DNA of 60,744 nt from Phycisphaerales bacterium (GTDB taxonomy: Bacteria; Planctomycetota; Phycisphaerae; Sedimentisphaerales; Anaerobacaceae), in NCBI GenBank assembly GCA_003141315.1, contig PLLP01000012.1:1-60744 (forward strand). The letters run 5' to 3'. Shown here piece after piece: positions 6,943 to 55,768 of this stretch. Position numbers and translations under genes: made by a program. Every line of letters starts with the position of its first letter. Position 1 is the first letter of the stretch. A model generated the notes under the pieces. That model had not been told where the DNA came from. It was given only the letters and a program-made list of their open reading frames with translations, and made no database searches.

Positions 6943-7938
6943 TTATCTTTCGATGAGTGTTTCGTCAACCTTGAGGCCGAAATGTCGGCCGGTCTTCTCG
7001 ACGTGAGCGAGGACTTTGTCGCCGGGCTTCAAATCGGTAATCGAAACAGGCTGGCCATCGGGTCGAACAAGGCGAATCGTCTCTGCGTTCTGCATAACAA
7101 GACTTACAGGCGAATTGTCGGCCTCAGCCTCGATGAGCATCATAGGCCTTTTTTCAATCTTGTTTCTGCCGAGATAAGCCGTCTGCGTTTTGCCTTCGAA
7201 ATTTACTATCAGCACTTCATCGCCTGATTTGAAATCGGCCAGATATTTTGTCCTGTTGCCCGGCGTAAGCGTGTATGCGTGAACAGCGCCCGCGTTGACC
7301 CTGAAAGGCCTGGAGGCGACATATGGGTTGTCGATAGATTCGGAATGCACCAGGAAAAATGCGGATGCGGTATTGCCGACGAGTATGCCTTCGCCGGGAT
7401 TCATCTGCGTGCAGGTATCGAGGCAGGAGCGGTCGCCCATACCGAGCTGACGAATGGTGGTTATAGTTGCAGGGGCAAGAGAAATTCGCTCCGTTATGCC
7501 GGCGATTATGTCGGCTGTCTTTTTGATATCGTTTATGTCGGTGGTGTTGAGGACGACGCCGTCGACGCCTTTTTCGAGGATTTCGGTCATAAGCTGTGCG
7601 TGTCTGCTGGTCTGGACCTGCACGAGTATGTTTTTGCCGCGGCGGGCGATGAGGTTTTCGATTGGGATTACCGTCCAGTCGAGCATACGCAGGACAACCA
7701 TTTTATTCGAAGGAACGGCGGCGGCCTTGTCTTCATCAGATTTACTGGTGATGTCGATGAACTCGACGTCTTTGCCCGGCACAATGTCGCCGTCTTTGGC
7801 AACTGTTTTAATCTTGCCGAACTGGCGAACGGCTTCGCTTTTGCCGTCGGGCAGTATTACGGCCTCGGCGCCGCTTTCGAGGGCTGCGATAACCACATCC
7901 TTGTTATAGGGATTTGCATTTACCCAGAATTTTTTCAT
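6943..7938 (-). CDS. 3-dehydroquinate synthase II (archaeal-type)
   Basis: A 331-residue enzyme matching DHQ synthase II, which uses NAD to convert 2-amino-3,7-dideoxy-D-threo-hept-6-ulosonate to 3-dehydroquinate, replacing the classical AroB step. Family features seen are the N-terminal KKFWVNANPYNKDVV, the run GVDGVVLNTTDINDIKKT, the highly conserved MGDRSCLDTCTQMNPGEG, GNTASAFFLVHSES and SRPFRVNAGAVHAY, ending in a beta-rich domain with EADNSPVSLVMQNAETIRLV. It lies downstream of the matching ADTH synthase gene on the same strand, with a hairpin between them. The route is mainly archaeal but is known in a minority of bacteria. Confidence 0.93.
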   Translation of the reverse strand: MKKFWVNANPYNKDVVIAALESGAEAVILPDGKSEAVRQFGKIKTVAKDGDIVPGKDVEFIDITSKSDEDKAAAVPSNKMVVLRMLDWTVIPIENLIARRGKNILVQVQTSRHAQLMTEILEKGVDGVVLNTTDINDIKKTADIIAGITERISLAPATITTIRQLGMGDRSCLDTCTQMNPGEGILVGNTASAFFLVHSESIDNPYVASRPFRVNAGAVHAYTLTPGNRTKYLADFKSGDEVLIVNFEGKTQTAYLGRNKIEKRPMMLIEAEADNSPVSLVMQNAETIRLVRPDGQPVSITDLKPGDKVLAHVEKTGRHFGLKVDETLIER

Positions 7939-8029: not shown

Positions 8030-8824
8030 TTAACTTTTCAGGATTTTTAGGGCGTCTTTGACGGAGACATCTTCGTGAACCATTTGACAAAGCGCCCTGA
8101 CCATTTTTTCGGGGTGTTTGTGCTGGAAGACGTTTCTGCCGATGGAGATACCTGCCGCGCCGGCCTTCAGTGCGCCGTCGACCATTTTGAAAATCTCTTC
8201 GTCGCTTCCCATTTTTTCGCCGCCTGCGATAACTACAGGGACAGGACAGCCTTTGATTACTTCCGCGAAGCTCTCGGTCTTTCCGGTATAGACGACCTTT
8301 ACAATATCTGCGCCGAGCTCTGCTGCGACCCTGGCAGCAATCTTGGTATTGTTGAGGTCAAATTCGTCTTTTATTTTTGGCCCGCGGGTGTACATCATTG
8401 CGATAAGCGGCATCTGCCAGTAATCGCAGCGTTCGCTGATGAAACCGAGCTGCCTAATCATTTCCTTGTCGGTTGGTGCGCCGAGATTGATATGAACCGA
8501 GACGGCATCAGCGCCGAGTTTGAGGGCCTCTTCGACGGTGCAGACAAGCTCTTTTGCCAGCGGGTCCGGGCTGAGCGATGTGCTGCCCGACAGATGTATG
8601 ATAAGGCCGATGTCTTTGCCGTGGCCCCTGTGGCTGGCGGGGACAATACCCTTGTGCATAAGGATTGCGTTAGCGCCGCCTTCGGCAACCTTCGAAACGG
8701 TGGTTCTCATATCTTCGAGACCTTCGATTGGGCCTACGGTGACGCCGTGATCCATCGGGACGATGACCGTTTTGCCTGAATCACGGTTTATTATTCTTTC
8801 GAGCCTTACTTTTTTGCCTAACAT
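8030..8824 (-). CDS. 2-amino-3,7-dideoxy-D-threo-hept-6-ulosonate (ADTH) synthase
   Basis: A 264-residue class I aldolase-fold protein (DeoC/FbaB/LsrF superfamily). It has the N-terminal [20 protein letters not shown] and [39 protein letters not shown], the Schiff-base segment [17 protein letters not shown], the phosphate-binding [15 protein letters not shown] and [14 protein letters not shown]. These match ADTH synthase, which condenses aspartate semialdehyde with a deoxyhexulose phosphate as the first step of the archaeal-type shikimate route. The related LsrF thiolase is less likely because the next gene is DHQ synthase II. TTTTGGAG precedes the ATG. Confidence 0.9.
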
Positions 8825-9042: not shown

Positions 9043-10659
9043 ATGACGAATTTGACGGTTCCAATATCGGCTTGTGATTTTCCGCAGGCAGCCGGGCAGC
9101 TTAAAGAGGCGAAGGCTGCCGGCGCCGAGGCGGTTGAACTGCGGACAGATTATATCGAGGCACTCAATGTTGAACAGGCCGAAAAAATCGTAAGCGAAGC
9201 CCAAAAGACTCACCTGCCGATAATCGTCACCTGCCGCGACAAAAAAGAAGGCGGAGCGATTGATTACCCCATTCAATTGAGACTTGATGTGTTGAAAAAT
9301 GCAATCGCAGCGAATGTCGATTTTGTTGACTTTGAGTATGAGAATTTTCGGGTTAAGAAAAACCAGGACGCCATTTTATCGGCATTATCTAAAAGCAAAA
9401 CGAGATTGATTTTATCGAAGCATAATTTTGCGGGCAAATTAGACAATCTCGATAAACTTTATAAAGATATTAAAAAGGCATTTCCTTCAGCGATACCGAA
9501 ACTTGTTTATACGGTGAATCATACAAACGATTGTTTCGAGGCGTTTGACCTGCTGCATACTTATCCGCCTCCGGGCGGACCGGGGCGGAATTCAAAAGAG
9601 GACTCGATTGTTTTATGTATGGGCGAGGCAGGACTAATCAGCAGAATTATCGCAAAGAAATTAGGCGGACTAATCACTTATGCAAGTCTGAATGAAAAAA
9701 GCGCGACGGCAGCAGGGCAGATTACCCTTGAGCAAATGAAAAAACTTTACCGCTGGGATAAGATTGATGCTGATACAGAGCTTTACGGCATAATCGGTTC
9801 GCCTGTTGCACATTCCTTATCGCCGCTGATTCATAACAGCTCTTTTGAAAAAATGGGTTTGAATAAACTGTATCTGCCTTTGCTTGTCGATGGCGGCAGC
9901 AAAGAGTTTAATCAATTTATGGAGAATATCCTTAAACGAGATTGGCTCAATTTTAAGGGTTTTAGCATAACGATCCCGCATAAGGAAAATGCACTTAAAT
10001 TCGTAAAAGACAAAGGCGGTTTTGTCGAACCATTAGCCGACAAAATCGGTGCCGCCAACACCATCCTTATTGACGAATCACGAGTCACGAGCGACGAGCG
10101 ACGACTTAGTGCTTACAATACAGATTATGCCGGCGCATTGGATGCGATAACAACAGGAATGGGAATAACCAGAACTGGATTGAAGGGTATGCCTGTTGCG
10201 GTTATTGGCGCAGGCGGCGTCGCAAGGGCAATCGTGGCGGGATTGCGTGATTGCGAAGCCAAAATAGCGATTTATAACCGCACAGTCAAAAGAGCAGAGG
10301 CTTTGGCGAAGGAATTTGATTGTGATTTTGCCGGCCTTGAAGAATTGAAAGATTTAAATGCAAAACTTGTTATCAATTGCACAAGTATTGGTATGCATCC
10401 GAAAATAAATGAAACGCCGATAGCGAAAGGGATTTTGCAAAAGGCACAGAGGCACAAAGGCACAGAGGGGATTGTGGTTTTCGATACGGTTTATAACCCA
10501 GTCGAGACTTTGCTGTTAAAACAGGCCAAAGAAATTGGCGCCAAGACCATTTCCGGCCTTGATATGTTCATTTTCCAGGCTGCTGAACAATTTAAACTTT
10601 TCACCGGCAAGGACGCTAACCCCGACCTTATGCGAAAAATCATTTCTGATTTTTTGTGA
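9043..10659 (+). CDS. aroDE: Bifunctional 3-dehydroquinate dehydratase / shikimate dehydrogenase (AroD-AroE fusion)
   Basis: A 538-residue fusion catalysing two successive shikimate steps. Residues 1-240 are type I dehydroquinase (EAVELRTDYIE, IIVTCRDKKEGG, catalytic His in LSKHNF near 127, Schiff-base Lys in PKLVYTVN near 153, LCMGEAGLISR). Residues about 243-538 are shikimate dehydrogenase (YGIIGSPVAHSLSPLIHN, FSITIPHKENA, AANTIL, YNTDYAGAL, NADP site AVIGAGGVARAIVAGL, INCTSIGMHP, GLDMFIFQAAEQF). The same fusion order is known from plants, chlamydiae and planctomycetes. Three short segments (PPPGGPGR, DESRVTSDERRLS, QKAQRHKGTEG) look like in-frame products of dispersed DNA repeats. It is divergent from the ADTH synthase/DHQ synthase II pair that makes its substrate. 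Confidence 0.95.
   Translation: MTNLTVPISACDFPQAAGQLKEAKAAGAEAVELRTDYIEALNVEQAEKIVSEAQKTHLPIIVTCRDKKEGGAIDYPIQLRLDVLKNAIAANVDFVDFEYENFRVKKNQDAILSALSKSKTRLILSKHNFAGKLDNLDKLYKDIKKAFPSAIPKLVYTVNHTNDCFEAFDLLHTYPPPGGPGRNSKEDSIVLCMGEAGLISRIIAKKLGGLITYASLNEKSATAAGQITLEQMKKLYRWDKIDADTELYGIIGSPVAHSLSPLIHNSSFEKMGLNKLYLPLLVDGGSKEFNQFMENILKRDWLNFKGFSITIPHKENALKFVKDKGGFVEPLADKIGAANTILIDESRVTSDERRLSAYNTDYAGALDAITTGMGITRTGLKGMPVAVIGAGGVARAIVAGLRDCEAKIAIYNRTVKRAEALAKEFDCDFAGLEELKDLNAKLVINCTSIGMHPKINETPIAKGILQKAQRHKGTEGIVVFDTVYNPVETLLLKQAKEIGAKTISGLDMFIFQAAEQFKLFTGKDANPDLMRKIISDFL
9564..9589 (+). repeat. In-gene copy of a TCCGCC/GGCGGA palindromic repeat
   Basis: TCCGCCTCCGGGCGGA followed by CCGGGGCGGA lies inside aroDE and encodes PPPGGPGR between the conserved LLHTY and SIVLCMGE stretches. 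It resembles the intergenic copies at 24.6, 26.3 and 29.6 kb. Confidence 0.5.
10072..10105 (+). repeat. In-gene copy of a GAGTCACGA-type repeat
   Basis: A run of related CACGA/GCGACGA words sits inside the AroE part and encodes DESRVTSDERRLS between the conserved AANTIL and YNTDYAG motifs. The core CGAGTCACGA recurs intergenically at 57644-57653. Confidence 0.5.
10437..10468 (+). repeat. In-gene copy of a GGCACAGAGGCACAAAGG repeat
   Basis: The tandem GGCACAGA, GGCACAAA, GGCACAGA words encode QKAQRHKGTEG in the AroE part. The same vocabulary (CTTTGTGCCTTGGTGG) appears outside genes at 29.0 and 47.1 kb. Confidence 0.5.
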
Positions 10660-10738: not shown

Positions 10739-13240
10739 ATGGCAAATAAAATTGGAATAAGGGTGATGGTTTTTGCAGCGGTGTTTTTTGCATTCGGTTT
10801 TACAGCAATAGCATCTGCGGCGACGAGCGGGGCAGAGCAGATTATAACAAAACTGCCGGATGAAACGGTAGCTTTCGTAGCCACAAGCGGCAGCGATGAG
10901 TTGAAACCGGCCTTTGAAAAAACCGTTATGGGCAAGATGTGGAACGACCCCAACGTGCAGACCTTTGTTAACTCAATCAAGTCCGAGGTTATAAGCAAAA
11001 TAAAGAAGGAAATGAATGACGCAAACAGTGCGAGGATATTCGATGAGGCGTCTGATTTTGCAGATTCACTTTTGAAAAGGCCTATGGTAATCGGCGCCGG
11101 CATAGAAAAGAGGGCAGCAGGTTCGACCCCTTCGACACCGCAGGCGGATTCGGCAGGCGCACCTGCGGCGAAATTACCTTTATTCGGGTTTGCGATTGTT
11201 GATGCAAGCAGCAGGCAGCTGGAGATTGCCAAAGCGATTATCAAATTTGAATCGCTGGCGCCAAAGGGTGCTATCGTTGACGTGGATGTTGCGGGGCAGA
11301 AGATGCACTGGTTTGCCGATTCGTCTGAGGTGCCGGGCTACTGGGGTTTTGTGGGCGATTACTTTGTCTTTGCGATAAACGACAAGTCGGGAATTGCGAT
11401 TAAGAATTTGCGAAGCAAAAGCGGCGCGACGGTAAATTATTTAGCTGATGTCGAGGGCAGCGGCGATGCCTGTGTTTTGTATGCCGATATACAAAAAATC
11501 GCAGAGTTAATCAAGACAATGGCACAGCAGGAAGAAGGGCAGGAAGGGCTGGACAAGATTAAAGTAGTATCGGTTGTTATGAAGGAGCTGGGTCTTGCGG
11601 ATGTGAAGTCGCTGAGGGCGAGGGTCGGTTTCTCTGGACAGGATGTTGTAGTGCAGGAGTTTATCGAGATTCCGCAGCCTCGAACGGGAATACCTGCCAG
11701 GTTGAAGCCGATAGATTTGATGACGTTTAACCTGGCGGATTCGCGGGCAAGCACGGCAACGGCTCTTAACGTTGACCTCGGCGGCATATACGATACGGTA
11801 ATGAATACGATTCGTGTTGCTTCGCCGAATGAGGCATATCCTGATGTCGACGAGGCTATAAAAGGGTTCGAATCGAAGGTTGGTTTTAATATCCGCAAGG
11901 ATTTGCTGGCGAACTTTGCCGGCCCGATTGTTTTTTATTCAATACCTGAAGGGGTGTTGAGTGATGTGCCGACCGGCGGGTTTGTTTTAGCTGCAAAGGT
12001 GACAAATGTGAAATCCCTCGAAAAGTCGCTAACAAGTTTAAGTAATTTTGCAGTGGGGGACGTCAACAATGTAATTCAGGATAGTAACAGCGAGGTTGAA
12101 ACCGGTAAAAATTTAATTAAGGATAGTAATAGCGAAGTTAAACAAAGCCAAAATGTAGTTAAGGGCGGTAATAGCAAGGTTAAACCCGGCAAAAATGTAG
12201 CTAATGCCAAGGGTGGTACCGGGGTTAAACAAAACAACAATGTAGTTAAGGACAGTAATAATATTGTTCGGGATAGCAACGCAGTAAAACGCAGCAATAA
12301 TAATATGGTTCAGGTTAAATCGCAGGAAATTGGCGGCAGAACATATCATACATTTGCGGTGATGCCTTATGCTGCGATGCAGATACTGCCTACCTGGACG
12401 ATAACGGATAATAATCAATTAGTTGTGGCGATGAATCAGCCTTTGTGCGTCAGGGCGGCAGCGAGAATAAAAGGGACAGACCGCAGCGATTCGATACGAA
12501 TGACGGCAGGCTTTAAGAAGGCTGTTGGAGAACTTCGCGGCGAACCGGTGTACATGGATTATACCGATTCACAGGTGCAGTTTAATGCGATGTTAAAGGC
12601 GGCACAATCATACTGGCCAATGCTCACAATGATGTCAGCGGGCGCTGGTTTTAAGCTGCCCATCGCACTGCCTTCGCTAAGCCGTATTACAGAAAATATG
12701 GGTTCGACTATTCAATACGGCTATTACGATAACAAGGGGCTGCATAAAAACTATCGCGGCAGCGGAATAGAAATAGTCGCAGCTGCTGGTATAGGCGGGG
12801 GAACAGCAGTTTTGATGGCAGTTTTGATGCCTGCACTTACAAAATCAAGGGAACAGGCTCAAAGAGTAGTTTCGGCCAGCCATTTATCAGATATTGGAAA
12901 GAGAATGTTTGTTTATGCAAATGATTATAATGATGTATATCCTCCTGATTTGAAGGAGCTTATTGAAAAGGCGGATTTGCCGCCAAAGAGTCTTGAGTCG
13001 CCGAGAAAACCCAAAGATTTTAATGGGCCGAGTTTCATATACATTCCCGGCCAGAATCCAATGATGGAATCCGGAAATGTTCTGGTCTATGAGAATCCGG
13101 AATTTTGCAAAGATGGAGTTAATGTCCTGTTTAATGACGGGCATGTTGCGTTTATGGAGCCGGCAGAATTTAAAAAGGAGCTTGAGAAAACTTACAAGCA
13201 GCTCGGGAAACCGATGCCGGCGGTAAAGTTCGGAAAATAA
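10739..13240 (+). CDS. Secreted/membrane planctomycete protein with prepilin-like DGH C-terminal domain
   Basis: An 833-residue protein of unknown function. A Sec signal peptide (cleavage likely after IASA) leads to a large domain reminiscent of DUF3352-type planctomycete proteins ([17 protein letters not shown]). Residues about 443-521 are a degenerate tandem repeat rich in Asn, Lys and Val. Near residue 680 a hydrophobic stretch ([20 protein letters not shown]) is followed by a segment that reads like the body of a type IV prepilin-like planctomycete protein (SKREQAQ-like, [20 protein letters not shown], then [14 protein letters not shown]). Such DGH tails normally sit on stand-alone prepilin-like proteins, so this looks like a fusion. 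GAGGAAT precedes the ATG. Confidence 0.75.
11120..11144 (+). repeat. In-gene dispersed repeat sharing GGTTCGACCCCTTCGACA
   Basis: This 18-base core is identical to the reverse complement of part of 23173-23214 inside a FabZ-like gene. In both genes it is read in the same frame and yields GSTPST. Confidence 0.65.
12067..12300 (+). repeat. Degenerate 42-bp (14-residue) tandem repeat inside the secreted protein gene
   Basis: About five to six units are visible at protein level, such as [28 protein letters not shown] and [14 protein letters not shown]. The 42-bp period preserves frame. It probably forms a flexible linker between the N-terminal and prepilin-like parts. Confidence 0.7.
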
Positions 13241-14494: not shown

Positions 14495-15676
14495 GTGTCG
14501 GTAAATAGCTGGTTGTTATTAGTTTATATTTTTGCGGTCGGCTGCTGCATAGGCAGCTTTTTAAACGTGGTCATTTACCGGCTGCCGCGGGAGAAGTCGC
14601 TGGTTAGTCCGCCGTCGACGTGCCCATCGTGTGGTAATCGAATACAGTTTTACGACAACATTCCTCTTGTGTCATGGTTAGTTTTGCAGGCAAAGTGCAG
14701 GCATTGCAAATCCCCGATTTCGCCGCGATATTTTGTGATTGAATTGCTCACGGGGCTTGTTTTTTTGGGCCTGTTTGTTTTGTATTTTGTCATAGGCGCC
14801 CGGCATTTCGAGATTGACGGCCAAATTGGCATAGCGGCGTTCTTCAAAGGCGGCTGGTTCGTTTATCTGCTGCACATTATTCTGCTGTCGGTCCTGATAG
14901 CGGTATCAGCGATTGATTTGGAATTATGGCTGATACCGATTGTTGTCTGCTGGTTTGCAGCTTTGGCAGGCGTTGCGGGGTCGGCATTGGCTCCTTTTAT
15001 CATAAAACCGGAAAGCATAACGGGCAGGTATCCATTGCCTGTGGCGGGGCCTGATACAGCCGCTCTGGCTGCCGGTGCGGCAATCGGGCTGGTTATTTCG
15101 CTGGTTTTAGTTGCAGCCGGTTGGATTAAGGAAAGTTACGAGGGCAGGATTGACAGTGAAAATCCCGAGAATGGGCAGGAGCCAAAACCGGAACCGGAAT
15201 TTAACGACAGGCTGGAGGCGTTGAGAGAGGTTTTATTCCTGCTGCCGGTAATAGTCTGCTCGATAGGCTTTTACCTGACGATTAGGAACCTGATGCCGGA
15301 TGGGTGGGCAAAATTTGTCGCTATTCCGGCGGCAGGGGGGTTTTTTGGCAGTCTGTGGGGCTTTTTTGCGGGCTGTGCGGTTGTGTGGGCGACGAGGATT
15401 TTGGGGACGCTTGCCTTCGGAAGGGAGGCGATGGGGCTCGGCGACGTACATCTGATGGGGGCGGCGGGGGCGGTTATCGGCGCTCTGCCGGTGGCGGTTG
15501 CCTTTTTTATTGCGCCGTTCTTCGGGCTTGGCTGGGTTTCTATCCAGATGCTCACCAAAAAAATTCATCAAATTCCTTATGGTCCCTTCTTGTCATTGGG
15601 AATATTTACTGTTATGATTTTTCAGGACAGAATTCTTGACATTTGGCGATTGTATGCGTTATCATTTAGCCGATAG
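14495..15676 (+). CDS. Type IV prepilin peptidase (PilD/GspO family)
   Basis: A 393-residue polytopic membrane aspartyl protease that cleaves and N-methylates prepilins or pseudopilins. The N-terminal methylase-type domain has GSFLNVVIYRLPREKSLVSP and a four-Cys zinc site (CPSCGNRI and CRHCKSPI). The two catalytic Asp are in AIDLELWLIP and in GLGDVHLMG. It is longer than usual (250-290) because of an extra segment, about residues 165-270, with an acidic linker between membrane helices. It starts at GTG with AAAGGAG four bases upstream. Its substrates may include planctomycete prepilin-like proteins such as the upstream neighbour, though that is inference. Confidence 0.93.
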   Translation: MSVNSWLLLVYIFAVGCCIGSFLNVVIYRLPREKSLVSPPSTCPSCGNRIQFYDNIPLVSWLVLQAKCRHCKSPISPRYFVIELLTGLVFLGLFVLYFVIGARHFEIDGQIGIAAFFKGGWFVYLLHIILLSVLIAVSAIDLELWLIPIVVCWFAALAGVAGSALAPFIIKPESITGRYPLPVAGPDTAALAAGAAIGLVISLVLVAAGWIKESYEGRIDSENPENGQEPKPEPEFNDRLEALREVLFLLPVIVCSIGFYLTIRNLMPDGWAKFVAIPAAGGFFGSLWGFFAGCAVVWATRILGTLAFGREAMGLGDVHLMGAAGAVIGALPVAVAFFIAPFFGLGWVSIQMLTKKIHQIPYGPFLSLGIFTVMIFQDRILDIWRLYALSFSR

Positions 15677-15721: not shown

Positions 15722-16354
15722 ATGAAAGTAAGTAGAGGAATGATTGGGCTTTTGGCGGGATTGTTTGCAGTTGCTGTTCTTTCCGGCTGCACAGACTGGA
15801 AAAAGAAATATGAGGCTTTGGACGTAGCGTATCAGAATACCAAGGGACAGCTCGAAAGAGAGCGTGCCGAGAAGGGCCAGATGGCTATGCAGCTTTCTGA
15901 ACTGCAGAAGCAGCTTGCTGAAGGTCAAAAAACCGGAAAGGATTTGGGTTTCCCGGGCGAGGTGAGCGTTAATGCCGCGGAAGGCACAATCACGGTCACG
16001 CTCGAAGACACAATACTTTTCGATTCGGGAAAAGCGGATTTGAAAAAGGCAACCAGCTCGGAACTTGACCAGATTGTTTCAACACTGAAGGGTAAGCAGG
16101 ATTATGCCGGCAAAAATATAGATATTGTCGGTTATACCGATACGGACCCGATTCACAAATCAACCTGGAAGGACAACTGGGAGCTTTCGTCGGAACGTTC
16201 TTTGACGGTTCTGCGGTATATGGTTAGTCATGGTATCGCAGCCGAAAGGATTCGTTCGATAGGATGCGGCGAAACGAGAGCTGTTGTGCCGAATACATCC
16301 GGTGCAAATAAATCCAAAAACCGCAGGGTCGAAGTTGTCGTGCATATGAGATAA
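15722..16354 (+). CDS. OmpA-family peptidoglycan-binding lipoprotein
   Basis: A 210-residue outer-membrane or cell-wall-linked lipoprotein. The signal peptide ends in a clear lipobox (AVLSGC), followed by a coiled coil (about residues 25-75, YQNTKGQLERERAEK) and an OmpA C-terminal domain (about 85-210) with ILFDSGKADLKKA, the peptidoglycan-binding IVGYTDTDPI, LSSERSLTVLRYMV and the final NRRVEVVV. It resembles Pal-like proteins that tie the envelope to peptidoglycan. A strong AAAAGGAG precedes the ATG, and a terminator follows. Confidence 0.92.
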   Translation: MKVSRGMIGLLAGLFAVAVLSGCTDWKKKYEALDVAYQNTKGQLERERAEKGQMAMQLSELQKQLAEGQKTGKDLGFPGEVSVNAAEGTITVTLEDTILFDSGKADLKKATSSELDQIVSTLKGKQDYAGKNIDIVGYTDTDPIHKSTWKDNWELSSERSLTVLRYMVSHGIAAERIRSIGCGETRAVVPNTSGANKSKNRRVEVVVHMR

Positions 16355-16393: not shown

Positions 16394-16430
16394 GTGGGCC
16401 TCTGAATTTACGGAGGCTCACTTTTGTTTT
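16394..16430 (+). terminator. Intrinsic terminator after the OmpA-like gene
   Basis: A 9-bp stem (GTGGGCCTC with GAGGCTCAC, one G-U pair) encloses a 10-nt loop and is followed by TTTTGTTTT. It also overlaps the end of the convergent comEC reading frame. Confidence 0.8.
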
Positions 16431-16795
16431 AAAAAGGTATCAAAGGAAATTTTTCCGGATTTACTTATTTTAATTTGTATTGCCCCGTCTCTTGCCGTGA
16501 ACAGATGCACCCCTGTTTTGGAAAATTCCTGCCGGTTTTCATATTGGGTTAAGCCAGAACTGCAAACAAGAAATTGCGGCTGAAGTTTATCAATAAAGAC
16601 AGGGTCAGTTGTCGCAACAGAACCGTGATGGGGCGCGATTACGATGTCAGCCCTGAGGTTGGGATATGCCTCGATAATTTTCTGCTGCGCGACTTTTTCG
16701 ATATCCGAGCAGAAAAGGATTTTGACCCCGGCATATTCGATTAATACTGCTGCACTCCTGTCATTTTTGCTTAACTGATTGTTGTTTATCGCGTC
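16418..16795 (-). pseudogene. comEC: Detached C-terminal part of ComEC (out of frame)
   Basis: On the minus strand, a frame shifted relative to the main comEC frame reads NNNQLSKNDRSAAVLIEYAG, then LFCSDIEK and IVIAPHHGS, ending at a TGA at 16418-16420. These are the conserved last third of the ComEC metallo-beta-lactamase-like domain. It has no start of its own. Removing one copy of the adjacent 7-bp duplication (16794-16807) joins it to the main frame and gives a protein of 851 residues. Confidence 0.88.
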
Positions 16796-18980
16796 CTGTG
16801 TCCTGTGTCGGCCATAATATTTTTATGCCGGCACCGGAATCGATTTGTAATTTGTCAAAATTCTGTATGTCGAGTTTCAGGCCTTTCAGGTAGTCATAAA
16901 GCAGTTTTGGCGCACCGGTATTTTCGCTGTCAGTGAGAAAATCATCGTTTGCATAAATGGATGTGGTTTTGACGTCGCTTACGACTTCGGGGATTGCGTT
17001 TATGTGGTCTATATCGTTGTGGCTGATGATTATCGCATCGAGTTTCGATATCGCCTGCGAACGCAAAAATGGAATGATAATGCGTCTGCCGGCGTCTTCT
17101 TTGTGGAGCGAGCCGGCGTCGAATAACAAATTTTTATTGTGCGGAAGCTGAACTATGATTGCCTGGCCATGACCGACATCGAGGCAATTTAAAATGAGAT
17201 TACTGTGGTATGTCCTTTGGAATTTAACAGAGATGATGGAGATTGCCAGTATCGAAATCAGGGCAAAGCTGATAATTTTTCGCAATAGCGGTCTGCGGAA
17301 AAGACAAAAGGCGGTGAAGATTAAGACGCAATAATAAAAAACTATTAACCAGATTGAAACCTGACCCATAAGGATTTCAGAGATGCTTACTTTGGCAAAA
17401 ATTTTGACAAGCCAAATGAGGATGAAGGTCACGCCTGTTGCGAGAAAACCTAAAATGGCGGCGGCGGTTGGCAGAAAAAAGGAAATGACAATTTTTGATA
17501 AGCCGATTATCGTAATGATGAAGACAAAAAACGAAGCCAATACAGTCCAGACAGCCGTTAATGGCGTGATTGAATAAAAGTGATAGAGCATAAAACCTGC
17601 GCCGCATACCCAGGCGCCGATGCCGGCGGAAAAAAGACTTAAAGTAGAAAAGAGTGACTTTTGGTTTATTAACAGAGGTAATTTTCCTTTTTCAGGTATC
17701 AATCTTAAAAGAACAGAAGTTTTTTCGTAAAGAAATAACTGTATGCGTTTGAAAAACAGCAGGATTCCCAGAGTGGTCGAAAAAGATAGCTGCCAACTCG
17801 CATTGTAGAGGTCGGTGGGGTTGAAAAGCAGCAGGATTATTGCGGAGAGTGCAAGCGAATTAAAGGAGTTCGGTTCCCGCCTGAACAAAAATGATGCACA
17901 AAAGACAAGACTGATAACGGCAGCCCGTAATACCGGCGGATTCGGAGGCACAGCCAGCACAAAAAGGATTGAGACCGCTATGCAGATTAACGCCTGCCGT
18001 CTTTTGCTGAGGCCTGCAAGTTGGCACAGCCACCACACAAAGGCAATCATAATAACAAAGTTCAGGCCCGACAGGCTCACAAAATGCAACAGGCCCGTTT
18101 TGCGAAATGCAATGGATGTTTTATTATCGATTTTAGTCCTGTCGCCGAGAACAAGCGCCGCGATAAGGGCTTTGCTGTTGGGGTTGTCTTCCGGCAGTCT
18201 TTCTGCCAACATATCTCTTGCGGCTCTTTGCAGATAATTGTGAATGTCAAAGAAAGATGAACCTTTGCTCTGGCTTGAAAGCAGCTCGATGCCGTCGCGG
18301 GTTTTAACGGCAGCTGTGATAAAAATATTGTTCTCTGATAATTTTTTTGCAAAGTCGAATTGCCCGGGATTTGTCGGCGGCTGAATTTTTTCCAGCCAGC
18401 AGTACATTTGAACGTTGTCGCCCGCCGTTAAATCTATTACAGGTTCAGCAACCTGCACACGAACCGTGCCTGATACATCGAACCAGCCTGTTTTGCCCTC
18501 TGCGCCGGTTATTTTCAGGTAGAAACTGCTGCCGGGGTCTGTGAATTTGAATTTGGAAAAAACCCAGTCGTTGTTGTCGCTCGTATAGGGTTCGGTGATT
18601 ATTGTTCCGCGAATTGTTGCTAAAGTCCGCTCGACTTTAACAAGATTGCTGATGTCGCTATCTGGCAGGTAGCGATAGGAACTCAGCCGGATTGCACCGA
18701 GAGATATTGAACAAAGAAATGCCAGCAATGCGATGGCATATAAATTCGATTTCGTTCTTTTGATGGCGATATAGATAATTGCAGCCGCCGCAGAAAAAAT
18801 TGCCGGAACAAGCCAGAATAATATGGGGAGTTTAATGGTATTTTGCAGAAATATGCCGATGATGATTGCCACAGCCGGCAGAACCAGCGGCGCGGTATCT
18901 ATAATCTGCCTGACGACATAGCCCGGCCCGAGTGACAATTTCCAGTCTATCAGTTCCAGTTTTTTCTTGATTAAATCCAC
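16761..18980 (-). CDS. comEC: ComEC/Rec2 DNA-uptake channel, C-terminally truncated by frameshift
   Basis: This 739-residue frame holds the inner-membrane channel that passes single-stranded DNA during natural transformation. N-terminal helices and a DUF4131-like beta region (residues about 110-240) lead to the competence domain (LVLGDRTKIDNKTSIAFRKT, HFVSLSGLNFVIMIAF), then a metallo-beta-lactamase-like domain (LDVGHGQAIIVQLP, DAGSLHKEDAGRRI, SHNDIDHINAIPE). The frame ends early after ILWPTQDTGRDKQQ because of two tandem TCCTGTG copies; the rest of the domain follows in another frame. It could be a dead gene, a phase-variable gene, or a sequencing/assembly artefact. Next upstream is serS. 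Confidence 0.88.
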   Translation of the reverse strand: MDLIKKKLELIDWKLSLGPGYVVRQIIDTAPLVLPAVAIIIGIFLQNTIKLPILFWLVPAIFSAAAAIIYIAIKRTKSNLYAIALLAFLCSISLGAIRLSSYRYLPDSDISNLVKVERTLATIRGTIITEPYTSDNNDWVFSKFKFTDPGSSFYLKITGAEGKTGWFDVSGTVRVQVAEPVIDLTAGDNVQMYCWLEKIQPPTNPGQFDFAKKLSENNIFITAAVKTRDGIELLSSQSKGSSFFDIHNYLQRAARDMLAERLPEDNPNSKALIAALVLGDRTKIDNKTSIAFRKTGLLHFVSLSGLNFVIMIAFVWWLCQLAGLSKRRQALICIAVSILFVLAVPPNPPVLRAAVISLVFCASFLFRREPNSFNSLALSAIILLLFNPTDLYNASWQLSFSTTLGILLFFKRIQLFLYEKTSVLLRLIPEKGKLPLLINQKSLFSTLSLFSAGIGAWVCGAGFMLYHFYSITPLTAVWTVLASFFVFIITIIGLSKIVISFFLPTAAAILGFLATGVTFILIWLVKIFAKVSISEILMGQVSIWLIVFYYCVLIFTAFCLFRRPLLRKIISFALISILAISIISVKFQRTYHSNLILNCLDVGHGQAIIVQLPHNKNLLFDAGSLHKEDAGRRIIIPFLRSQAISKLDAIIISHNDIDHINAIPEVVSDVKTTSIYANDDFLTDSENTGAPKLLYDYLKGLKLDIQNFDKLQIDSGAGIKILWPTQDTGRDKQQSVKQK
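16794..16807 (+). repeat. 7-bp tandem duplication that breaks comEC
   Basis: TCCTGTG is present twice head to tail at 16794-16800 and 16801-16807. Seven is not a multiple of three; one copy fewer restores an uninterrupted ComEC frame (checked by codon counting from both ends). Confidence 0.9.
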
Positions 18981-18999: not shown

Positions 19000-19055
19000 T
19001 CAAGACGCCAGACGCAAGACCCAAGTTAACGTATAGCGTATAGCGGATAGTAGTT
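19000..19055 (-). repeat. Short repeat-rich spacer between serS and comEC
   Basis: The spacer contains near-tandem words (AGACGCCAGACGCAAGAC and GTATAGCGTATAGCGGATAG). They look like the same class of small dispersed repeats seen elsewhere in the window. No promoter is evident. Confidence 0.4.
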
Positions 19056-19062
19056 CGGGGTA

Positions 19063-20334
19063 CTAACTGCGGGCTATTTTTTCTTTGCCGTTCATATAGG
19101 GGCGGAGAACTTTGGGGATGGTGATTGAGCCGTCTTTTGTTTGGTAAAGCTCCAAAATCGGTATCAAAATCCGCGGACTGGCAATCACGGTATTATTCAT
19201 CGTATGGCAGAAGAGGTTCTTTTTCGTCTTCGGGTCTTTATATCGAAGATTCAAACGGCGGGCCTGGAATTCGTAGAACCGGCTTGCGCTGTGGGTCTCG
19301 CCGTAATTTTTCCGCGAGGGCATCCAGGTCTCGATGTCGAATTTTTGCACCTGGCCTCTGCCGAGGTCGCCCGTGCAGACGTTGACAACCCGGTAGGGTA
19401 GTTCCAGAGCCTGCAAAACTCCCTCCGAATTGGCGAGAATCTCGGCGTGCAATTTTTTGCTCTCTTCAATATCGTTTTTGCAGATGATTACCTGCTCGAC
19501 CTTGTCAAACTGGTGGATTCGGTACAGGCCGTAAGTGTCCTTGCCTGCGGCGCCGGCCTCACGCCTAAAACAAGTCGAAAGGGCGACAAATTTTTTCGGC
19601 AGGTCGCCGGCGAGCAGGATTTCATCCTTGTAATATGCGGTGACGGGGACTTCCGCGGTGCCTGCGAGGCTCAATTCATCGAGGGTTCTGTATGTCTGCT
19701 CTTCGGAGCCGGGATAGTAGCCCGTTCCCGTCATAGTTTCGTATTTCATCAGCATCGGCGGCGACATTGGCGTATAGCCTTTTGCGACCATAAAATCGAC
19801 CGCAAATCGCAACACCGCCCAGTGCAGCATAGCGCCATCGCCCTTGAGGAAGTAATTTCTTGCCCCTGCGAGCTTGACGCCTCGTTCGATATCCATAATA
19901 TCCAGCGCCAGGCCGAGCCGGACGTGGTCTTGCGGCTCAAAATCGAATTTGCGTATTTCGCCGACCTTTTTTATTTCGACATTTTCGGTATCGTCTTTAC
20001 CCAGCGGAACATCATCATCTGCCGGTTGCGGCACTTCGAGCATTAGCGCATCGAATTGCGGCTGAAGGTTTTTGGTTGTCTCATTGTAATCCTGCTCCTG
20101 TTGTTTCAGTTGCGCGAGAGTTTCGATGGCCTTTTGCTTTTCGGCATCGGGCAATTTCGGAATTTCTTTGCCGACTTTATTTTTTTCGGTAAGGATGTCC
20201 TGCAGTTTTTGTTTGGCGTCTTTGAGTTTCGAATCTATCTCGATGAGTTTATCGATATCGACGTTAAAATGTTTGTCAGCGGCAGCCTTTTTGAACCGCT
20301 CTGGATTTTCCCGTATTTCCTTAATATCAATCAT
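19063..20334 (-). CDS. serS: Serine--tRNA ligase
   Basis: A 423-residue class II aminoacyl-tRNA synthetase that charges tRNA-Ser. The N-terminal long coiled coil (residues about 25-105) binds the tRNA arm. The catalytic core shows the serine-binding LAGTAEVPV, motif 2 (ALSTCFRREAGAAGKDTYGL and YRIHQFDKVE), IETWMPSRKNYGETHSASRF and motif 3 (NNTVIASPRILIPILE). Length is typical. GAGGGAAT precedes the ATG. It follows the ketosynthase genes by 41 nt on the same strand, so it may share their transcript. Confidence 0.96.
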   Translation of the reverse strand: MIDIKEIRENPERFKKAAADKHFNVDIDKLIEIDSKLKDAKQKLQDILTEKNKVGKEIPKLPDAEKQKAIETLAQLKQQEQDYNETTKNLQPQFDALMLEVPQPADDDVPLGKDDTENVEIKKVGEIRKFDFEPQDHVRLGLALDIMDIERGVKLAGARNYFLKGDGAMLHWAVLRFAVDFMVAKGYTPMSPPMLMKYETMTGTGYYPGSEEQTYRTLDELSLAGTAEVPVTAYYKDEILLAGDLPKKFVALSTCFRREAGAAGKDTYGLYRIHQFDKVEQVIICKNDIEESKKLHAEILANSEGVLQALELPYRVVNVCTGDLGRGQVQKFDIETWMPSRKNYGETHSASRFYEFQARRLNLRYKDPKTKKNLFCHTMNNTVIASPRILIPILELYQTKDGSITIPKVLRPYMNGKEKIARS

Positions 20335-24032: not shown

Positions 24033-24070
24033 ATTTTTTCTCCGTTGCGATTATTTTAATATGCGATTTC

Positions 24071-24101
24071 CCTATACCCTATTCCCTATCCCCTAAACCC
24101 T
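24071..24101 (-). repeat. CCCTA-word array at the 3' end of the second dehydratase gene
   Basis: The plus strand reads as four to five degenerate CCCTATT/CCCTAAA words. The TAG stop of the downstream-most dehydratase frame (24093-24095) lies within the array, so the repeat supplies the end of that gene. Confidence 0.55.
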
Positions 24102-24563
24102 ATTTAACAATTTCCATCTTTGTTTCATAGCTTCGATTATCTGGCCATCGACGGCGGACATCGATGGGTCGCGGTCTGCGAGGTTGAAATGCCGCAGGCC
24201 GAACTTCGCCTCGACAATCGTCTGGCCTGCCGATACGCCGACGCCAGTAAAACTGCTTATGTTTTCTTCGATAGTCTTTGCCTCGACGGCGTATTCAATT
24301 TGTCCGCCGGGAGCGAGAAAACTTTTGTATTTAACGTTTCTGGCCTCGGCGAGCAAAATCATACTGTGGGCAAAATTCTCTTTTAATCTTACTAACCAGC
24401 CTGCCGATTCGATAAGCCCTTCGAGCAGCAGCACGCCGGGCAGCACAGGAAATGCAGGGAAATGGTCGGCTAAATATTCTTCCGACAGTGAGACGTTTTT
24501 AATAGTCTTTATTCCAACGCCTGCGGTTATAGAAACGACCTTATCGATTAAAATAAACCTCAT
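24093..24563 (-). CDS. FabZ-like 3-hydroxyacyl-ACP dehydratase (second copy)
   Basis: A 156-residue hotdog protein related to FabZ. The catalytic His is in ADHFPAFPVLPG and the Glu in LLLEGLIESAGWLV. It differs clearly from the first copy, so the two may act on different chain lengths or intermediates, or form a heterodimer. It is the first gene of the minus-strand cluster (dehydratase, ACP, dehydratase, KS, KS). Its last two codons and stop fall in a CCCTA-type repeat, which may have replaced the original C-terminus. No ketoreductase or acyl ligase is in the window. Confidence 0.85.
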   Translation of the reverse strand: MRFILIDKVVSITAGVGIKTIKNVSLSEEYLADHFPAFPVLPGVLLLEGLIESAGWLVRLKENFAHSMILLAEARNVKYKSFLAPGGQIEYAVEAKTIEENISSFTGVGVSAGQTIVEAKFGLRHFNLADRDPSMSAVDGQIIEAMKQRWKLLNRV

Positions 24564-29622: not shown

Positions 29623-29718
29623 CGAAATACAGTAGACAGAATGCAAAAGCACAGAAGAGGTTTTTAGTTAATTCCGCAATTTTGATTTTTTACTTTTGAT
29701 TTTTGATATTTGGATTGT

Positions 29719-46748: not shown

Positions 46749-47019
46749 GAAACATCTCTTGTCAAGCTTGATATGTCAAATATCAAGCTTGAAACATCGT
46801 ATATCAAACATGAAATGCCGCATGTCAGACATGAAACTTCAAATATCAAGTGTGAAACGTCGCATATCAAGCTTGAAACACGAAGAAGCAAGTGTGAAAC
46901 ATCGTGTTTCATATATGAAATGCCTCGGAGCAAACATGAAACGTCGTGTTTCAAGTGTGAAAATCCTTTCCGCAAGCTTGAAACTTCGAATATCAAGCAT
47001 CAAAATCCTCTTATCAAAT
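46749..47019 (+). repeat. 21-bp degenerate tandem repeat (about 13 units)
   Basis: Units align as GAAACATCGTATATCAAGCT with variants; GAAA starts almost every unit and TCAAGCTT, TCAAGTGT or TCAAACAT ends it. The length of 21 keeps all frames open, giving heptad peptides such as HETSNIKCETSHIK or SSLKHRIS. Copies differ enough to suggest an old array or selection for a loose consensus. Confidence 0.85.
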
Positions 47020-53896: not shown

Positions 53897-55768
53897 ATGC
53901 AAAACTTTGACTGGAAGGAAAAATATAAAAGTAAGATAACGACAGCCGCTGCCGCGATGAAGCTGATAAAATCGGGCAACAGCATATTTATCGGGACGGG
54001 GTGCGGCCAGCCGCAGCATTTGGTTAACGCTCTCGTGGAACATTCATCGGGTATCACCGATGCTCACGTAGTTCACCTGCTGACAATGGGTACTGCGCCG
54101 TATGCCGATGACAAGTTTCGCGAAAAATTCAAGATGAACACTTTCTTTATTGCCGAGAATGTTCGCGATTCACTTGCCAGGGGCATTGGCGATTATACGC
54201 CGATTTTCCTGTCCGAAATCCCGAGGCAGTTCGAAACCGGCAGGATTCCTGTCGATGTTGCCCTGATAAGCGTATCGCCGCCTGATGCGAACGGCCTGTG
54301 CAGCCTGGGCGTCTCGGTTGATATTGTTAAATCCGCTACAGCCAATGCGAAATATATTATCGCGCAGGTCAACGCTAAAATGCCGCGAACGTTCGGCGAC
54401 AGTTTTCTCCACGTTGGCGAAATCGAGGCAATGGTTCCTTTTGATGAGGATATAATAGAGGTGCAGCAGACGCAGCCGGATGATGTCTTGCGCCGCATCG
54501 GCCAAAATATTGCCCGCCTCGTCGAAGACGGCAGCACCATCGAATGCGGCATCGGGCGTATCCCACAGGCACTCGTGGAATTCCTGAAAGATAAAAAAGA
54601 CCTCGGCGTCCATACCGAAATGTTCGGCGACTGGGTTATGGATTTAATCGACTGCGATGTGATTACCTGTGCGAAAAAAACCCTTAACCGCGGGAAAGTT
54701 GTCGCCAGTTTTTGTATGGGAACAAAGCGGCTTTACGAATACATTGATAATAATCCGTTTTTCGAGTTTTATCCGACAGAATATGTCAACGACCCGCTCA
54801 TAATCAGTCAGCATGAAAAAATGGTTGCCATAAATGTCGGTCTCGAAATCGACCTTACGGGGCAGGTTTGTTCCGATTCGCTCGGCTACCAGTTCTACAG
54901 CGGCATCGGCGGGCAGGTCGATTTTATCCGTGGCGCCGCCCGAAGCAGGGGAGGTAAGGCCATTATTGCTTTGCCTTCTACCGCAAAAAATGAACAGATA
55001 AGCAGGATTGTCCCGCGCCTCACAGAAGGCGCAGGCGTTGTCACCACGCGGGGCGATGTCCATTATGTCGTCACAGAATTCGGCATCGCTTACCTGCACG
55101 GCAAAAGCATCAGGCAGCGGGTTATGTCCCTTATTGATATTGCTCATCCCAAATTCAGGGCCAAGCTTATCCAGGCTGCCAAGGCGCAGAAATATATTTA
55201 TTCTGACCAGATTGAACTCGATTCCGAAAATGTCAGATACCCTGAAGAGCTCGAAACCCACAAAACGCTCAACGATGGAACCGAGATATTTTTCAGGCCT
55301 GTCAAGCCCACCGATGAGGCGGCAATTTCTGAGATGCTTTATTCGCTGAGCCCATCGTCGATACGAACGCGATATATGACACAGACTATGACCTTTCCGC
55401 ACAAAGACGTCCAGCGGATTACCAACGTTGACTATTTGCAGAATTTGGCAATCGTAAGCACGGTGCCGGCTGTTACCGGCGAACACATCGTCGGAATTGC
55501 CCAGTATTTCCTCGACCCGAAGACTCGTGCAGCCGAAGTCGCCTTCATCGTGCAGGACGAATGGCAGCAAAAGGGCATGGGAACTTTACTGCTCGAATAC
55601 CTTACGGATGTCGCAAAGCGGCACAGGGTAAAAAGCTTCTTTGCGAAAGTGCTTCCAACGAATAAGCCTATGCTCGCCGTTTTTTACAACTCCGGTTTTA
55701 ATGTGAATACCGAATTTGACGGCGAGGTCTATAACATAAAGTACGACATAGAGAAACAAAAGGAGTAA
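53897..55768 (+). CDS. Acetyl-CoA hydrolase/CoA-transferase fused to a GNAT acetyltransferase
   Basis: A 623-residue two-domain protein. Residues 1-440 are an acetyl-CoA hydrolase/4-hydroxybutyrate CoA-transferase (family I): SGNSIFIGTGCGQPQHLVNA, ISVSPPDANGLCSLGVSVDI, YSGIGGQVDFIRGAARSRGG and VTEFGIAYLHGKSIRQR. Residues about 455-620 are a GNAT domain (IFFRPVKPTDEAAISEMLYS, VAFIVQDEWQQKGMGTLLLE, NKPMLAVFYNSGFNV) like those of Pat-type protein acetyltransferases. The CoA-transferase part may move or hydrolyse acetyl-CoA, while the GNAT part may acetylate a protein such as Acs. It sits between the ADP-forming ligase and a deacetylase gene. Confidence 0.9.
   Translation: MQNFDWKEKYKSKITTAAAAMKLIKSGNSIFIGTGCGQPQHLVNALVEHSSGITDAHVVHLLTMGTAPYADDKFREKFKMNTFFIAENVRDSLARGIGDYTPIFLSEIPRQFETGRIPVDVALISVSPPDANGLCSLGVSVDIVKSATANAKYIIAQVNAKMPRTFGDSFLHVGEIEAMVPFDEDIIEVQQTQPDDVLRRIGQNIARLVEDGSTIECGIGRIPQALVEFLKDKKDLGVHTEMFGDWVMDLIDCDVITCAKKTLNRGKVVASFCMGTKRLYEYIDNNPFFEFYPTEYVNDPLIISQHEKMVAINVGLEIDLTGQVCSDSLGYQFYSGIGGQVDFIRGAARSRGGKAIIALPSTAKNEQISRIVPRLTEGAGVVTTRGDVHYVVTEFGIAYLHGKSIRQRVMSLIDIAHPKFRAKLIQAAKAQKYIYSDQIELDSENVRYPEELETHKTLNDGTEIFFRPVKPTDEAAISEMLYSLSPSSIRTRYMTQTMTFPHKDVQRITNVDYLQNLAIVSTVPAVTGEHIVGIAQYFLDPKTRAAEVAFIVQDEWQQKGMGTLLLEYLTDVAKRHRVKSFFAKVLPTNKPMLAVFYNSGFNVNTEFDGEVYNIKYDIEKQKE

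Follow-up and report, generated by a model that had tools for sequence, protein, structure and literature searches.

A 7-bp tandem duplication splits the reading frame of the only comEC gene in a planctomycete draft genome

The single comEC gene in the draft genome of an uncultured planctomycete is interrupted by an exact 7-bp tandem duplication, and we read it as a recent loss-of-function allele with a probability of about 0.6. The window, the whole stretch of 60,744 nucleotides that we analyzed, lies on contig C3 of a 2.35 Mb draft genome (25 contigs, 96.6% complete). A single PF03772 match was found in this whole draft genome, which makes comEC a single-copy gene and rules out a second intact comEC. 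The interruption involves the following features:

16761–18980, minus strand: comEC, truncated frame; 739 residues from a GTG start, with DUF4131 (OB), Competence and the N-terminal part of the metallo-beta-lactamase domain with HNDIDH
16761–16763, minus strand: premature TGA of the two-copy frame, overlapping the KND-motif codons of the other frame
16418–16792, minus strand: C-terminal part of comEC in the other frame, with SKNDRS, CSDIE and APHHGS; a separate start codon was not seen close to where this part begins
16793–16809, minus strand: period-7 stretch GACACAGGACACAGGAC; 17 bases, made up of the exact 7-bp tandem duplication (16794–16807) and a 3-base overlap

In the 739-residue frame, the Competence domain (PF03772) scores 143.7 bits against a cut-off of 23 (residues 276–562) and DUF4131 (OB) scores 70.2 bits against a cut-off of 31.6. 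Lactamase_B (Pfam) matches this protein with its first part only, and the equivalog profile TIGR00361, scored on the 739-residue frame alone, gives 139.1 bits, which is under its cut-off of 190.05. The other frame stays open as far as 16418 and includes SKNDRSAAVLIEYAG, CSDIE and APHHGS. This short tail by itself gave no Pfam match; by sequence it matches solved ComEC structures such as 9vc6 (E 2e-10). The nuclease domain is consequently divided, with HNDIDH in the 739-residue frame and CSDIE and HHGS in the other. With one unit only, the coordinates give a protein of 851 residues. These results agree with the observation of the first-pass annotation, which had described TCCTGTG as doubled at 16794–16807, a frame stopped at 16761 by the two copies, a frame to 16418 and an 851-residue ComEC with one copy, and intact C-terminal SKNDRSAAVLIEYAG and APHHGS segments. 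Re-initiation of the tail can be eliminated: the ATG that overlaps the TGA belongs to the third frame and is followed by a TAA a few codons later.

On the plus strand, 16794–16807 reads as TCCTGTG twice, head to tail; on the coding strand the period-7 stretch consists of two GACACAG units followed by GAC, which amounts to 2.4 copies. The pair TCCTGTGTCCTGTG occurs in the window at this site only, and in 0 of 100 shuffles. This exact duplication within the gene explains the frameshift. In the one-copy sequence, the stretch would start and finish with GAC at a distance of 7 bases, and we infer that the polymerase slipped from one GAC triplet to the other and so added a copy of the 7-base stretch. 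Because an extra overlap of at least 3 bases is expected in about 5% of pairs by simple reckoning and occurs in 5 of the 43 7-bp pairs of our genome sample, the GAC overlap argues only weakly for this cause.

The existence of a 7-bp pair is not unusual in this genome; its location is informative. The window contains 10 such tandem pairs compared with 3.3 in shuffles, and the genome sample (460,744 bases: the window plus 400 kb) contains 43 compared with 26.5 in dinucleotide shuffles. Since only 25 of these 43 pairs lie inside open stretches, which comprise 90% of the bases and carry pairs at about the shuffle level, the excess lies outside. At the genome rate, about 0.13 pairs are expected per gene of comEC length. 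What goes beyond chance is evidently the position: the pair sits exactly where the homologues require a frame change, and the chance of finding a 7-bp pair inside this interval of ~35 bp is ~0.002 by a simple reckoning from the pair rate of this genome. We also asked how often loss of one unit yields a long frame, using tandem pairs of unit 4–29 not divisible by 3 and counting the gain of a long frame. This outcome was seen in 42 of 1,636 frame tests (2.6%) compared with 1,730 of 54,924 random positions (3.1%), which rules out an unusual load of frame-breaking tandem pairs in this sample. Eight of the 42 candidates in the 461 kb were inspected and proved to be gene junctions or shadow frames.

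As a separate observation, 18 of the 43 7-bp pairs fall outside the long open stretches, in just 10% of the bases (p ~4e-8), and pairs of 4, 5 and 6 bp are not enriched outside reading frames (10–12%). The relatives show a weaker gathering of 7-bp pairs outside frames (10 of 50). Clusters of these pairs are located at 19001–19050, 24070–24103 and 29680–29712 of the window and also in the G000 samples C10 and C16; one block lies between comEC and the seryl-tRNA synthetase gene (serS). Degenerate arrays with lags of 14 and 21 are prominent too, and somewhat resemble the heptamer repeats of cyanobacteria. A literature search on heptamer repeats and microhomology-mediated duplication in bacteria gave nothing pertinent.

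Following a proposal of the first-pass annotation, we compared the site with comEC genes from genomes outside the source genus. The named relatives are mostly metagenome-assembled genomes assigned to Sedimentisphaerales, Phycisphaerae or Planctomycetota, and the best comEC relatives share about 45–52% identity with the gene in the window. Four stretches were found in viral contigs, none of them a relative, and a plasmid search gave 0 matches; a literature search on comEC in Planctomycetota returned nothing pertinent. The two parts of comEC share a frame in each of the 48 relative loci L003–L050, which upholds the attribution of the interruption to the 7-bp duplication. Of 16 further loci, 15 can be aligned in one frame with an intact relative as far as that relative's end; for the remaining one, L087, the alignment breaks off early and the sequence beyond is partly masked. 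An anchor for the site was obtained in 62 of 64 loci, 48 of them distinct (the misses are L079, which has VWP, and L087). Within 75 bases past the anchor, a tandem pair of unit 7–12 was found in 0 of the 48 distinct sites, and units of 4–6 are present there in some relatives. Between the W and the ND motif, 43 of 48 relatives have a distance of 14 residues, three have 13, one has 12 and one has 11; the window, read with one unit, has 14. Since the relatives are all in one frame and none has a tandem pair with a unit of at least 7 at this site, the two-copy state is evidently derived.

A tail free of selection for long should have drifted. The difference between tail and upstream identity to 45 relatives is −0.041 for the window and −0.028 among the relatives, which places the window 18th of 46 (1 being the most eroded; L003, L005 and L049, in which the reading is cut off, were left out). 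Of the 25 columns that 90% or more of the relatives conserve, the tail retains 23 (0.92; leave-one-out median 0.96). Given this lack of erosion, the change in comEC is apparently recent, or not real; the earlier description of both halves as otherwise undamaged and of the change as recent fits the uneroded tail.

The rest of the competence pathway, which had also been suggested for inspection, is in unbroken frames. We found dprA (247 bits, over the cut-off), a comF-like gene (95 bits) and a gene for a comEA-like HhH protein (43 bits), the latter two under their curated cut-offs, along with several pilT-family genes and a prepilin peptidase gene. The open frames of dprA, comF-like, comEA-like and pilT genes rule out a general decay of competence genes. 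This state of the pathway fits a recent loss and an assembly error equally well.

In the case of an assembly or consensus error, the population would carry one copy and an intact comEC, and the second copy would stem from assembly, polishing or minority reads. We regard such an error as unlikely, although the genome is a draft in 25 contigs, the other competence genes checked are unbroken and the tail is uneroded. Lone lesions do occur in such drafts, as judged from comEC itself: a comEC match of 600 residues or more is present in 67 of 89 family genomes, and 2 of these 67 (own genome included in the count) carry an internal stop in an otherwise good gene (G009, TAG; G031, TGA) beyond which the alignment continues in frame. 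A third stop lies in the comEC tail of L049 (G064 by its coordinates). In contrast, two long control genes have no internal stops: 0 of 75 for UvrD (own included) and 0 of 53 for a CoA ligase (own included, counting matches with 59% identity or more; weaker paralogue matches in G017 and G085, each with a stop, and other weaker or shorter matches were left out). The difference between comEC and the controls has a p of ~0.12 by hand and rests on few events. Frameshift splits occur in the controls as well (G075 for UvrD and G079 for the CoA ligase, from coordinates), and errors seem frequent in several single-contig genomes of low completeness. Genome G078 was left out: its comEC gives two partial matches, of which one contains a stop, and the tail is masked (L087). 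Also against an error, the eight candidates inspected included no further case of a gene broken in this way, and a clean 7-bp duplication without another lesion is not known as a usual error of short- or long-read assembly. We therefore favor a real, recent loss-of-function allele and consider a consensus error less likely.

Two further observations on comEC in relatives emerged from these comparisons. In three relatives (L005, L023 and L049), an otherwise well conserved comEC contains a single in-frame stop, and no two of these stops share a position. The comEC matches of L017, L088 and L093 (G004, G093 and G094), and also of G068, are split near residue 115–130 in frames of 904–949 residues, which suggests that the OB region carries an additional in-frame insertion.

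The first-pass annotation had further proposed that the duplication could act as a switch, with loss of one unit turning DNA uptake back on. This idea is not supported, given two copies, no repeat in the relatives and a chance-level frequency of such pairs. In a phase-variable comEC, gain and loss of the 7-bp unit would toggle DNA uptake and be kept by selection. The pair is exact, the one-unit frame fits the relatives, the gene is otherwise intact, and reversible short duplications are reported within open reading frames of pneumococcal capsule genes (cited in PMC4022640). Nevertheless we judge phase variation quite improbable. Contingency loci are recognized by a tract of many repeat units that is kept in relatives, whereas this site has just 2.4 copies and its repeat is found in 0 of 48 distinct relative sites (62 of 64 loci anchored). 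Moreover, 7-bp pairs in open frames occur at the chance level, and with frame restoration in 2.6% of tests compared with 3.1% at random the 461-kb sample shows no store of such switches. Loss of one unit would be possible in principle, as in any tandem duplication, and may be slow by the pneumococcal yardstick, according to which insertions of up to 9 bp revert at a rate of at most ~1e-5 (PMC4022640, citing Waite et al.). There is a slim chance that frequent gain and loss of the unit lets comEC-on and comEC-off cells coexist, as a slippage-driven switch of DNA import in a planctomycete with intergenic DNA rich in 7-bp pairs. Among the literature matches listed, no title or abstract opening describes comEC phase variation, and a search on short duplications and phase variation gave nothing further pertinent.

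Returning to a recent loss-of-function allele, the duplication would shift the frame and end translation 15 residues past the ILWP segment, so that the last ~117 residues, from SKNDRS onward, would be lost. The product would keep the OB and channel domains, and the nuclease domain only in part. In the crystal structure of the Moorella glycerini ComEC nuclease domain, H598, D600, D602, H603 and D700 bind metal, and H725 and S728 are putative DNA-binding residues, according to PMC12455585. The same source reports that changes of such residues abolish or lower nuclease activity, and that in Legionella the changes that lower it abolish transformability, the serine excepted. In the window, the aspartate of CSDIE and the histidine and serine of HHGS are spaced by 25 and 28 residues, equal to D700, H725 and S728, and by motif and spacing rather than structural alignment they are the probable equivalents of these residues. 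The 739-residue product retains HNDIDH and lacks all three, including the metal-binding aspartate. Since residues for metal and DNA binding lie in the tail, we predict a dead nuclease for the truncated protein and impaired or absent DNA uptake.

The loss of uptake is probable rather than certain, since some ComEC proteins of competent species have no nuclease domain. The truncated protein might still import DNA if the nuclease domain is dispensable and another nuclease substitutes for it. The complete OB and channel domains would permit this, PMC6299819 lists 14 ComEC proteins of known competent species that match the DUF4131 and Competence profiles without Lactamase_B, and PMC12455585 mentions transformable species without the nuclease domain. 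We find this improbable: the intact relatives keep the full nuclease domain and HHGS, the cut lies within the fold instead of at a domain border, and active-site changes in Legionella abolish transformation (PMC12455585).

Full-length ComEC could also arise from the two-copy mRNA by a one-base ribosomal shift ahead of the TGA. The stop context, AAA TGA C, adjoins a run of five A and loosely resembles known +1 shift sites. However, none of the relatives examined uses two frames at this site, so that no shift site is kept in the homologues, and the duplication by itself accounts for the frameshift. Such recoding is highly improbable.

The surroundings of comEC are the following:

19063–20334, minus strand: serS, upstream of comEC on the same strand
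15722–16354, plus strand: OmpA-family protein, convergent neighbor of comEC
14495–15676, plus strand: prepilin peptidase-like protein (A24_N_bact, Peptidase_A24), possibly a partner of the DNA-uptake pilus

Elsewhere in the window, genes for 3-dehydroquinate synthase II and a DeoC/LacD-type aldolase, which we take to be an archaeal-type entry to aromatic amino acids, adjoin a fused 3-dehydroquinase/shikimate dehydrogenase gene (6943–7938, 8030–8824 and 9043–10659). A 42-bp tandem repeat of 4.6 degenerate copies (12064–12260) lies inside an 833-residue ORF for which no Pfam or NCBIfam match was found. Two degenerate arrays with periods of 21 and 42, similar to TCAAGCTTGAAACGTCGAATA, lie next to each other at 46762–47010. 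An acetyl-CoA hydrolase/transferase fused to a GNAT acetyltransferase domain (53897–55768) adjoins an ADP-forming CoA ligase.

As it stands, this comEC is one ordinary broken allele, and a caution that draft genomes may hide or invent breaks. A real and fixed break would mean that an uncultured lineage lost DNA import very recently; a mixture of one- and two-copy reads would make it a genetic switch for DNA uptake.

In domain order and motifs, the gene is like the ComEC/Rec2 family (TIGR00361; PF13567, PF03772, PF00753), with the difference that the nuclease domain changes frame before its C-terminal part. An exact tandem duplication in an open reading frame that abolishes function, reversibly in principle, is also known from the pneumococcal capsule genes (type 3 locus, cap8E and tts; Waite et al. 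2001, 2003, as cited in PMC4022640); there phase variation was measured in cultures, whereas here a competence gene is represented by one assembled sequence. In Piscirickettsia salmonis, comEC is reported as broken in all genomes (PMC12955456), so that, as here, the single uptake channel is lost with its parts recognizable; that case involves transposable elements and further decay, in contrast to a single 7-bp duplication without decay. Similarly, the inactivation of comM in Acinetobacter baumannii is described in PMC11472951 as the recent loss of a transformation gene within a species, but the gene is a different one, the cause is mostly mobile elements, and losses of other competence genes are rare.
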